A DNA stretch of 64,000 bases, from positions 5,564,001 through 5,628,000 of the forward strand of contig NZ_CP109078.1 in the NCBI RefSeq assembly GCF_035917455.1, read 5' to 3'. The notes below the pieces were generated by a model. The model searched no databases. It was given only the letters and a program-made list of their open reading frames with translations, and was not told where the DNA came from. The translations under genes and the position numbers were made by a program. Positions 47,277 through 50,902 of this stretch are shown one piece after another (within the stretch, counting starts at the first letter, position 1; each line of letters begins with the position of its first letter). The stretch comes from Micromonospora sp. NBC_01796. GTDB taxonomy: Bacteria; Actinomycetota; Actinomycetes; Mycobacteriales; Micromonosporaceae.

Positions 47277-49190
47277 TCACCGTGCCGGTGCCGCCGGGGT
47301 CGGCAGCAACTCGCCGAGCAACTCGCCCAGGACCGCCAGGCCGTCCTGGCTGAGCACGGACTCGGGATGGAACTGCACCCCGGCGAAGGTCGGACCGCGC
47401 AGGGCGTGCACCGCCCCGTCCCCGCCGTCGCGGGCGACCCGGACCGGCCCGTACGCGGTGACCAGCTCGTCGGCCCCGGCCAGGGCGGTGAAGGTGGAGT
47501 AGAATCCGACCCGCCGTACGGTCCCGAACAGGTCGACCTCACGTTGCAGCCCCTGGTACGGCGCGTCCCGCCGGTGCAGGCGCAGCCCGAGCAGCCCGGA
47601 CAGCAACTGGTGACCGAGGCAGATGGCGAGTGTGGGCCGACCCTGCTCCAGCAACCCGGTGAGCAGGCCCCGCAGGGACGCCATCTTCGGGTCGTCGAGC
47701 TGGTTCGGGTCACCCGGACCGGGTCCCACCACGACCAGGTCGGCCCGGTCCGCCCCCACCGCGTCACCGGCGTCGTGCCAGGGGCGCAGCTCGACGGCGA
47801 GGCCGAGGGCCCGCAACTGGTGGGCCAGCATGCCGGTGAAGGTGTCCTCCCCGTCGACGATCAGCACCCGCCGGCCGGCCAGCGCCGGCACCAGGGCGGC
47901 GCCGGGGGCGCGCTGCTCCAGCCAGAACCGGGCGAGCCGGTCGTTGCGGGCGGCCAGCGCGGCCCGTACGGCCGGGTCGTCGGCCAGCCGGTCCGGCAGC
48001 CCCGCGGCCCGGACCGGGGCGGCCGGGCGCAACCCGAGCGCGGCGAGCACCCCGGCCGCCTTGGCGTGGGTCTCGGCCACCTCCCCCTCGGGCGTCGAGT
48101 GGCGGACCAGGGTCGCCCCGACCGACACCCGCAGCGCCCCGGCCGGGGAGATCTCCGCGGTACGGATCAGGATCGGTGCGTCGAGGGTCTGCCGTCCCTC
48201 GTCGTCCACCCCGAGCAGGGCCAGCACCCCGGCGTAGTAGGCCCGTCCCCGTCCCTGCTCCCGCCGGGCGATCACCCGGCAGGCGTTCTCCATCGGGGAG
48301 CCGGTCACCGTCGGGGCGAACATCGTCTCGCGCAGCACGTCGCGTACGTCCAGCGAGCCACGGCCGGCGAGCAGGTACTCGGTGTGGACCAGATGCGACA
48401 TCTCCTTCAGGTACGGCCCCACCACCTGACCGCCCTGCTCGGCCACCGTCGCCATCATCTTCAGTTCCTCGTCGAGCACCATGTACAGCTCGTCGGTCTC
48501 CTTCGGGTCGGCGAGGAAACGCAGCAGCGCGTCCCGGTCCGCCGGTCCGTCCGGGTGCCGGAAGGTGCCGCTGATCGGGTTCATCATCGCCAGCCCGTCC
48601 TCGACGCTGACGTGCCGCTCCGGGCTCGCCCCTACCAGGATCCGGGTGCCGGTGTGCACCACGAAGGTCCAGTAGGCGCCGCGTTCGGCGGTCAGCAGCC
48701 GGCGCAGCGCGGCCAGGGCGGCGGTCAGTGGCGGTCCGACCAGGTTCGCCCGATAACTGCGGTGGATCACGAAGTTGGCGCCCTCGCCCCGGCCGATCTC
48801 CTCCCGCAGGACCTGCCGGGTGATCTCCGCGTACTCCTCGTCGGGGAGGTCGAAGGCGCCGCCCTCGGTGCGTACCGGCTGGTCCGGCAGGGCCGCCAGG
48901 GCGCGGTCCAACGGAACCCGCTGGTGCGCGCCGATGGTCAGGCACTCCAGCGGGGCACCGTCGTCGACGCAGGCGAACCCGCGCTCGGCGATCTGCCGGT
49001 ACGGAACCAGCGCCAGGGTCCGGGCACCGGCCGGGCCGCCGGGCAGGGGGATGTCGGCGAGCCGGTCGACCGTACGCAGCTCCCCGGTGAACACCTCCAG
49101 CTCCGGGGCGTCGGCGCGCCGGATGATCGCGAACGGGCCGGGGTCGGTACCGGCGGCGATCGTGGCGAGCAGGTGCGGGAGCAGGTCCAT
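47277..49190 (-). CDS. trpEG: fused anthranilate synthase TrpE-TrpG
   Basis: A 637-residue fusion. The chorismate-binding half (about 1-430) contains ANFVIHRSYRANL, VGASPERHVSVEDG, MNPISGTFRHPDG and APTVTGSPMENACRVI. The glutamine amidotransferase half (about 440-637) has the nucleophile loop LAICLGHQLLSGL and the catalytic FHPES. Fusion in this order also occurs in PhzE (ADIC synthase). The upstream Trp-codon leader and attenuator argue for anthranilate synthesis for tryptophan, or a Trp-regulated secondary pathway. ATG 49190 is preceded by GAGGAG. No other trp genes are adjacent, so this may be a second, specialised copy. Confidence 0.88.
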   Translation of the reverse strand: MDLLPHLLATIAAGTDPGPFAIIRRADAPELEVFTGELRTVDRLADIPLPGGPAGARTLALVPYRQIAERGFACVDDGAPLECLTIGAHQRVPLDRALAALPDQPVRTEGGAFDLPDEEYAEITRQVLREEIGRGEGANFVIHRSYRANLVGPPLTAALAALRRLLTAERGAYWTFVVHTGTRILVGASPERHVSVEDGLAMMNPISGTFRHPDGPADRDALLRFLADPKETDELYMVLDEELKMMATVAEQGGQVVGPYLKEMSHLVHTEYLLAGRGSLDVRDVLRETMFAPTVTGSPMENACRVIARREQGRGRAYYAGVLALLGVDDEGRQTLDAPILIRTAEISPAGALRVSVGATLVRHSTPEGEVAETHAKAAGVLAALGLRPAAPVRAAGLPDRLADDPAVRAALAARNDRLARFWLEQRAPGAALVPALAGRRVLIVDGEDTFTGMLAHQLRALGLAVELRPWHDAGDAVGADRADLVVVGPGPGDPNQLDDPKMASLRGLLTGLLEQGRPTLAICLGHQLLSGLLGLRLHRRDAPYQGLQREVDLFGTVRRVGFYSTFTALAGADELVTAYGPVRVARDGGDGAVHALRGPTFAGVQFHPESVLSQDGLAVLGELLGELLPTPAAPAR

Positions 49191-49210
49191 GGGCGTCTCC
49201 TCGGGCCGGG

Positions 49211-49274
49211 GGCCGTCCGGCGCGGCGGCCGGGGAGTGAGGGGAACGCTGGCGGCCGCCGCGCTGGGCGGCCGC
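49211..49274 (-). promoter_or_regulatory. transcription attenuator of trpEG
   Basis: Read leftward from the leader stop, segment 1 (49274-49266) pairs perfectly with segment 2 (49259-49251) in a 9-bp stem. Segment 2 can instead pair with segment 3 (49230-49223), and segment 3 with segment 4 (GGCCG/CGGCC across 49226-49215). These mutually exclusive stems directly follow a Trp-rich leader. No T tract is present, as is common in GC-rich actinomycetes. Confidence 0.65.
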
Positions 49275-49283
49275 GTGGAAGAA

Positions 49284-49343
49284 CTACGCGCGGAGGTCGG
49301 CCGCCGGGTTGGCGGGCCACCAGAATTCGGATCGCGCGAGCAT
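49284..49343 (-). CDS. trpL: trp leader peptide (TrpL-type)
   Basis: ATG at 49343 opens a 19-codon frame, MLARSEFWWPANPAADLRA, ending at TAG 49284-49286. It has adjacent Trp codons followed by a Pro-Ala-Asn-Pro-Ala-Ala stretch, closely resembling Streptomyces trp leader peptides, which contain tandem Trp codons followed by TAHPAA. The frame lies 93 bases before the trpEG start and just ahead of alternative hairpins. Ribosome stalling at the Trp codons when charged tRNA-Trp is low would favour read-through. Confidence 0.8.
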   Translation of the reverse strand: MLARSEFWWPANPAADLRA

Positions 49344-49517
49344 GTTCCGGACGCTACGACCCGCCCCAACCAGCGCTCGCGACCGGCCCGCCCGACGTCC
49401 ACCAGGTGGACCGGAATCGGCCAGCCGATCGTCGGGGATCGATGCGGTACGCATGTTCGGGGTACCGGTCGGGTGCCGGCGGCCGGCGCCGTGGGCGTAC
49501 CGGCGACACCCGTTGGG

Positions 49518-49523: not shown

Positions 49524-49531
49524 GGCCGGCG

Positions 49532-50902
49532 ATGAACATTCTCGCGCTCGACCTGGGCACCTCGTCGGTACGGGGGCTGGTCCTCGACAGTGACGCCGTC
49601 CCGCTGCCCGGTGCCCTGGCGCGCCGGAAGATGGCCATCACCATCGGCGACGACGGTGCCGCGACCCTGGACGCCGCCGACTACCTGGCCGCGCTCGAAG
49701 CCTGCCTCGACGAGCTGAACGAGGCCGGGCACCTCGACCACATCGGCCTGGTCGCCACCGCCGCCCAGTGGCACTCGGTGCTCCCGCTCGACCAGCACGG
49801 AAACCCGCTCGGCCCGGTGCTGACCTGGCTCGACAGTCGCTCGTCACCACCGGCAACCCAGCCCGGCCCGGCGGACCCGGCGGACTTCCACCACCGTACG
49901 GGGACCTGGTGGCACCGGTTCTACTGGACCGTACGGCTGCCCTGGCTGCGCGAGTCGCTGGGACTTCGCCCGGCGCGTTTTGTCGGACTGGTCGAGTACG
50001 CCTTCGGCGCCCTGCTCGAACACGCCCCGATGTCGGTCTCCCAGGCCTCCGGCACCGGCCTGCTCGACCTGCGCACCCTGGACTGGGACGCCGAGGCGTG
50101 CGCCCTGGCCGAGGCGGGTCGCACCGAGTTGCCGGAGCTGGCGGCGGTGGACTGGACCGGACGGCTGCGCGCCGACTACGGCCGCCGCTGGCCGGGGCTG
50201 CGTGACGTACCGTGGGCCGCTCCGACCGGCGACGGGGCGGCGTCCAACGTGGGGTCCGGCTGCGTCGACCCGTACCGGGCGGCGGTCACCGTCGGCACGT
50301 CGGCGGCCGTCCGGTTGGTCCAGGCGGCGCCCGCCGGTGCCATCCTGCCGCCGTTGCCGGAGGGGCTCTGGCGGTACCGGGTGGACCACCGGCACGTGGT
50401 CACCGGCACCGCCTACTCGGCCGGCGGCAACCTCTTCGCCTGGGCGAAGAAGGTCCTCCTGCTGCCGTCGGGTGCGGAACTGGAAGAGGCCCTGGCCGCG
50501 ATCGAACCCGGCGGCGGTCTGGTCGCCGACCCCCGGCTGGGTGGGGACCGGCCGCCGGGTCTCGCCCCGGCCGGCTCCGGCAAGGTGTATGGCCTGAGTT
50601 TCGGCACCCGGGCGGTGGACATCTTCGCCGGCCTGATGGAGGCCCTGTGCCGGCAGGTGGCGGCCGACCTCGCCGAGATCGAATCCACCGTGGACTACCC
50701 GGTCGAGGTGGTGCTCGGCGGTGGTGCGGTGGCCGCGTCACAGTGGTGGCGGCAGGCTTTCGTGGCCGCGCTGGCCCCCCGCCAGGTCAGCCACGTACGC
50801 AATCCGGAGATCGGTGCGACCGGAGCGGCATTGATCGCGATCGGTCGCTTCCACGACGGGGTCGGTCTCGAACGCATCAGCCGGACGGATGAGGGCCGAT
50901 AG
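49532..50902 (+). CDS. FGGY-family carbohydrate kinase
   Basis: A sugar kinase of 456 residues. The N-terminal phosphate-1 motif is LALDLGTSSVRGLVLD, the FGGY_N domain covers roughly 1-230, and VTVGTSAAVRLV is the phosphate-2 region. The C-terminal FGGY signature includes VEVVLGGGAVAASQWWRQAFVAAL (adenosine motif) and NPEIGATGAALIA. Gluconate or a related polyol/ketose is the likely substrate, as gluconokinases have similar length, but no sugar genes surround it. ATG 49532 fits the family N-terminus exactly and probably begins a leaderless message. It is divergent from trpEG. Confidence 0.85.
   Translation: MNILALDLGTSSVRGLVLDSDAVPLPGALARRKMAITIGDDGAATLDAADYLAALEACLDELNEAGHLDHIGLVATAAQWHSVLPLDQHGNPLGPVLTWLDSRSSPPATQPGPADPADFHHRTGTWWHRFYWTVRLPWLRESLGLRPARFVGLVEYAFGALLEHAPMSVSQASGTGLLDLRTLDWDAEACALAEAGRTELPELAAVDWTGRLRADYGRRWPGLRDVPWAAPTGDGAASNVGSGCVDPYRAAVTVGTSAAVRLVQAAPAGAILPPLPEGLWRYRVDHRHVVTGTAYSAGGNLFAWAKKVLLLPSGAELEEALAAIEPGGGLVADPRLGGDRPPGLAPAGSGKVYGLSFGTRAVDIFAGLMEALCRQVAADLAEIESTVDYPVEVVLGGGAVAASQWWRQAFVAALAPRQVSHVRNPEIGATGAALIAIGRFHDGVGLERISRTDEGR

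Follow-up and report, generated by a model that had tools for sequence, protein, structure and literature searches.

The 64-kb window of Micromonospora sp. NBC_01796 analyzed here (the whole stretch, 64,000 nucleotides) carries on its minus strand a short leader open reading frame (ORF) upstream of a fused TrpE-TrpG gene (Table 1). The ORF comprises 19 codons, ATG CTC GCG CGA TCC GAA TTC TGG TGG CCC GCC AAC CCG GCG GCC GAC CTC CGC GCG followed by TAG, with a tandem Trp pair at codons 8 and 9. The first-pass annotation had placed an attenuator with a leader of this length and tandem Trp codons at 49211 to 49343, and that range is right, with a −10 box lying just outside it. The fusion gene begins 93 bases downstream of the leader stop codon and encodes, in one chain, a chorismate-binding domain (residues 118 to 377) and a glutamine amidotransferase domain (residues 443 to 621). 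On the other side of the leader, a divergent gene for an FGGY-family carbohydrate (sugar) kinase occupies 49526 to 50902 on the plus strand; 182 bp separate its start from the leader ATG, a gap shared by the two promoters.

Table 1. Features of the leader and the fused gene (leader nt 1 corresponds to position 49343)
Feature	Position	Strand	Leader nt	Remarks
−10 box, TAGCGT	49351..49356	−		7 nt before leader ATG; from sequence and leader comparison
Leader peptide ORF, MLARSEFWWPANPAADLRA*	49284..49343	−		Trp codons 49322-49317
Outer 1:2 helix, 5' strand, GCUCGCGCG	49333..49341	−	3-11	Pairs with 49283-49292; covariation and partner-swap test
Segment 1, GGUGGCCCGCC	49311..49321	−	23-33	Overlaps Trp codons
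Segment 2, GGCGGCC	49299..49305	−	39-45	Begins 14 nt past first base of last Trp codon
Outer 1:2 helix, 3' strand, CGCGCGUAGU	49283..49292	−	52-61	Contains stop codon
Segment 3, GCGGCCGCC	49266..49274	−	70-78	
Segment 4, GGCGGCCGC	49251..49259	−	85-93	3:4 hairpin of 9 bp
Tail past 3:4 hairpin, CAGCGUUCCC	49241..49250	−		Weak U tract
Likely ribosome binding site of fusion gene, GAGGAG	49197..49202	−		From sequence only
Fused TrpE-TrpG gene	47277..49190	−		637 aa, PhzE-like

Judged from its spacing, the −10 box would have transcription begin on the leader start codon or immediately beside it. We observe a TAnnnT motif 6 to 8 nt before the start codon in 126 of 126 leaders compared, the start codon having been picked among nested candidates partly by this box; as background, 4 of the 747 ATGs in the window have TAnnnT 5 to 8 nt upstream. 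The Streptomyces lividans orthologue, TrpL1, has been reported to be leaderless by RNA-seq (PMC8079986), and this likeness together with the −10 spacing suggests that the leader mRNA is probably leaderless here too. In one genus (g43 of family f27), the Trp leader has been lost at 11 loci (L134, L135, L139-L141, L143, and L146-L150), and several loci of this genus have a −10-like box just before the start of the fusion gene, which may itself be leaderless there.

Folding yields mutually exclusive 2:3 and 3:4 stems (−17.8 kcal/mol with nt 39 to 79 free and −20.6 kcal/mol, respectively), and in the ribosome-free leader 1:2 and 3:4 coexist. Within the 2:3 form, the CGCGU of the outer-helix 3' strand has an alternative pairing with 49276-49272. 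The alternative 1:2, 2:3, and 3:4 stems that had been proposed from the sequence are thus borne out by folding, while the energy of the whole leader proved only mildly better than that of shuffled sequences (z = −1.71, with 9 of 200 shuffles equally good), so that energy alone is no proof of an element. Tandem Trp by itself is not rare either, since the window holds 11 short ORFs with two adjacent Trp codons on its two strands, the leader included. The significance of the leader rests instead on conservation.

Among the best 80 orthologous loci, drawn from a collection of species genomes and all from Micromonosporaceae or Frankiaceae, a Trp leader occupies the same position in 80 of 80 and the tandem Trp is kept in 79. 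The exception (L038) has TGG CGG in its place, as does one of the later loci outside the best 80 (L151). In the nucleotide alignment the segments are nearly invariant; conservation is absent from the leader's downstream half. Non-conservation of the Trp codons or stems in orthologues had been named at the outset as the outcome that would count against the element; both are conserved. In three Actinoplanes-type loci (L072, L077, and L078) the leaders stop early (MLHARLNWWPA*) with the downstream segments retained, which indicates that the end of the peptide is dispensable.

The element extends beyond these two families. Five more family groups (f18, f19, f20, f27, and f37) also yielded leaders, with peptides as unlike as MFAHSTQNWWWTAHPAAH and MYATVLGSWWPAS. 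R1, a covariance model trained on leaders of Micromonosporaceae and Frankiaceae, gives a single match in the genome of the window (E = 3e-15), matches in 87 of the 121 Micromonosporaceae genomes, and recovers the leaders of f19, f20, and f37, which were absent from its training set (E about 1e-8 to 1e-2). The fusion gene is present in 67 of the 198 genomes of a class-wide sample. In four Frankia-type loci (L131, L133, L136, and L137), the TrpE and TrpG halves appear as two separate search matches, and the gene may be split or insertion-bearing there. Rfam models gave no gathering-score match in the window, to a T-box or any other described RNA family.

Covariation supports two of the helices. 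In an alignment of 44 leaders fitted to the covariance model, and hence leaning toward that structure, covariation scores 0.227, whereas shuffled controls give 0.127 (0 of 500 as high) and slid partners at most 0.05. Both partners have changed in 7 of the 9 base pairs of the outer 1:2 helix and in 3 of the 9 that make up the 3:4 hairpin. In a partner-swap test, the 5' end of the leader outperforms shuffled versions of that same 5' end in binding the leader's downstream region in every group, and it prefers this region to those of other groups in five of six groups, f1 and f18 giving a near tie. The covariation check suggested in the first-pass annotation thus succeeded for the outer helix and for 3:4. 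It did not for 2:3, which gains no covariation support of its own because the segment cores barely vary (the five bases at the core of segments 2 and 4 are invariant, and those of segment 3 vary in one row only), nor for pair counting in a plain MAFFT alignment across families, where covariation is no better than in shuffles because gaps split segment 3.

The geometry of the leader is equally constrained at one point. The last Trp codon, measured from its first base, lies 13 to 14 nt ahead of segment 2 in 116 of the 123 leaders. The members of f1 are close relatives of one another, so it is the agreement between groups that counts as independent evidence. Other spacings vary widely (start to Trp, 21 to 42 nt; Trp to stop, 9 to 42 nt; stop to hairpin, 5 to 51 nt). 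In toeprints, a ribosome with a codon in its A site ends about 12 to 13 nt downstream, so that segment 2 would begin where a ribosome stalled on the last Trp codon ends. In the f20 and most of the f37 leaders, the UAG stop codon abuts or overlaps segment 2.

We conclude that trpEG is very probably preceded by a ribosome-mediated transcription attenuator responding to charged tRNA-Trp. Leader translation, ribosome stalling, and termination, which we infer from this arrangement, would run as follows. RNA polymerase would start on the leader ATG or right by it, giving a leaderless mRNA from which the leader would be translated. When Trp is scarce, the ribosome would stall on UGG UGG and cover segment 1 together with the outer helix's 5' strand, with its leading edge just short of segment 2, leaving 2:3 to pair and the terminator unformed. 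When Trp is plentiful, it would reach UAG and cover segment 2, 3:4 would form, and transcription would stop before trpEG. With no ribosome present, 1:2 would form and 3:4 as well.

The output of this sensor is its most debatable part, since the tail that follows segment 4 in the window has 2 U in 8 nt, a weak U tract behind a strong hairpin where an intrinsic terminator is looked for. The weakness is shared by most Micromonospora: the mean number of U in the 8-nt tail is 2.4 in Micromonosporaceae, versus 3.7 in f19 (Streptomyces-type) and 4.3 in f37. Intrinsic termination may therefore be weak, partial, or factor-requiring in this lineage. Alternatively, but less likely, leader translation could act through Rho-dependent termination or by controlling how accessible the trpEG start is. 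In favor of this reading, besides the weak U tract, the full-length fold favors a longer hairpin in which segment 4 and a downstream copy pair (GCGGCGGCCG with CGGCCGCCGC), and translation attenuation has been reported for mycobacterial cys leaders (Canestrari 2020, as cited in PMC13236596). Against it, the 3:4 hairpin is strong and covaries between families, and U runs stand at the same place in orthologues, including a clean UUUU run after segment 4 in some Actinoplanes-type relatives and the U-richer tails of other families. In addition, the ribosome binding site lies outside any conserved helix, and the leader's downstream half is unconserved.

The function of the enzyme bears on what the sensor serves. 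The closest solved structure is PhzE (3r74; 592 bits, versus about 56 bits for TrpE structures), and the domain order is the same, which might point to a phenazine-like pathway in which the enzyme is the ADIC synthase and its Trp leader merely prevents competition with tryptophan synthesis. We hold this to be very improbable. In a tree of 84 homologues, the 10 PhzD-linked genes, with linkage judged by the upstream translation pattern in raw sequence rather than by a family search, form one clade (support, 97) that lacks leaders, while the window gene falls in the other clade with the leader-bearing genes, where the leader was lost once (in the f27 genus above). R1 finds no match better than E = 0.57 at the PhzD-linked loci, and no isochorismatase (PhzD) was seen in the flanking long ORF translations read around the window gene. 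Moreover, the fused TrpEG of Streptomyces venezuelae is reported to be an anthranilate synthase and not an ADIC synthase (Ashenafi 2008, as cited in PMC3111181). Comparison of residues gave just three conservative positions separating TrpEG from PhzE (222, 274, and 355), which do not amount to a test of function. Because the gene stands apart from the PhzD-linked, leaderless PhzE genes, the element points to tryptophan supply, and the enzyme most likely serves tryptophan synthesis as an anthranilate synthase, beside the conventional trpE that the same genome has in a his/trp cluster. The earlier suggestion that the leader helps decide the function of a fusion type also used in phenazine-like pathways is upheld by this separation of clades, and it provides an annotation rule: a Trp leader before a PhzE-like fusion indicates tryptophan supply, and an overlapping PhzD gene indicates a phenazine-type pathway.

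It could also be argued that the attenuator has decayed in this lineage and no longer works, given the poor U tract, the presence of a conventional trpE elsewhere in the genome, and the single loss of the leader within the clade. This seems to us scarcely credible, as the leader codons, the segments, and the 14-nt spacing are retained across the family and among congeners. That the leader is a chance short ORF in GC-rich DNA, as the further tandem-Trp ORFs and the modest fold z-score might have suggested, is refuted by its conservation, with covariation also against it, and can practically be set aside.

The attenuator described here is a well-conserved Micromonosporaceae version of a known type, represented by the trpEG attenuator of S. 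venezuelae (Lin, Paradkar, and Vining 1998, as cited in PMC4833913) and trpL1 of S. lividans. It shares with these the fused PhzE-like TrpEG target, a tandem Trp leader at the same place, the GGCGGCC/GGCCGCC/GGCGGCC core, and probably a leaderless leader. A resemblance to Streptomyces trp leaders had been noted from the sequence, and it is confirmed by orthologues carrying MFAHSTQNWWWTAHPAAH, one residue from S. lividans TrpL1 (PMC8079986). Streptomyces-type leaders have three Trp codons, usually 18 codons in all, and an outer-helix partner after the stop codon, whereas the window leader has two Trp codons, 19 codons, a partner that includes the stop codon, and a poorer U tract. Actinobacterial trp attenuators were described by Seliverstov et al. 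2005 (PMC1262725) for Corynebacterium and Streptomyces, with a double or triple UGG, a GC-rich terminator, and a gGCC-rGCy-GGCC triple, all of which recur here; according to that study all terminators have poly-U, unlike the poor tract of the window. As in the Escherichia coli trp leader, ribosome stalling at tandem Trp would select between 2:3 and 3:4. The window differs from E. coli in its probable leaderless start, an outer helix that joins the region of the start codon with the stop codon, one fused gene where E. coli has an operon, and the lack of a clear U tract. Compared with PhzE, the window gene has no PhzD neighbor and falls in a separate clade, and it has a Trp leader.

In the literature examined, we found no description of the outer helix, the fixed spacing, or the poor U tract, and nothing relevant linking Micromonospora to a tryptophan attenuator, which is not proof of novelty. 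A possible, if doubtful, extension is that several actinobacterial families share a leaderless Trp attenuator whose 5' end (codons 2 to 4) pairs at or after the stop codon, and that this covarying helix could hide the leader start after each round of translation, making a gated leaderless attenuator that in Micromonosporaceae can do without a strong U tract. The findings extend a classic control circuit to Micromonosporaceae, and the mechanism is readily testable thanks to its probable leaderless start, its covarying 5' helix, and a ruler fixed at 13 to 14 nt.

The same Trp element is also found in relatives before trpS (L156 and L158) and trpD (L161, L162, and L165), gene identities being read from translations; elements before trpEG, trpS, and trpD would look like the expected picture of a tryptophan regulon. 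In the genome of the window, the conventional trpE overlaps a hisI-like gene at its start and has no leader. A second trpS of this genome (C1, locus L169, upstream of 4546819 on the minus strand) is preceded by a leader with a single Trp codon, VRMTTNGWRAP*, which is probably leaderless and carries a GGGCGGCC/GGCCGCCC/GGGCGGCC triple, making it a putative second Trp attenuator in this genome.
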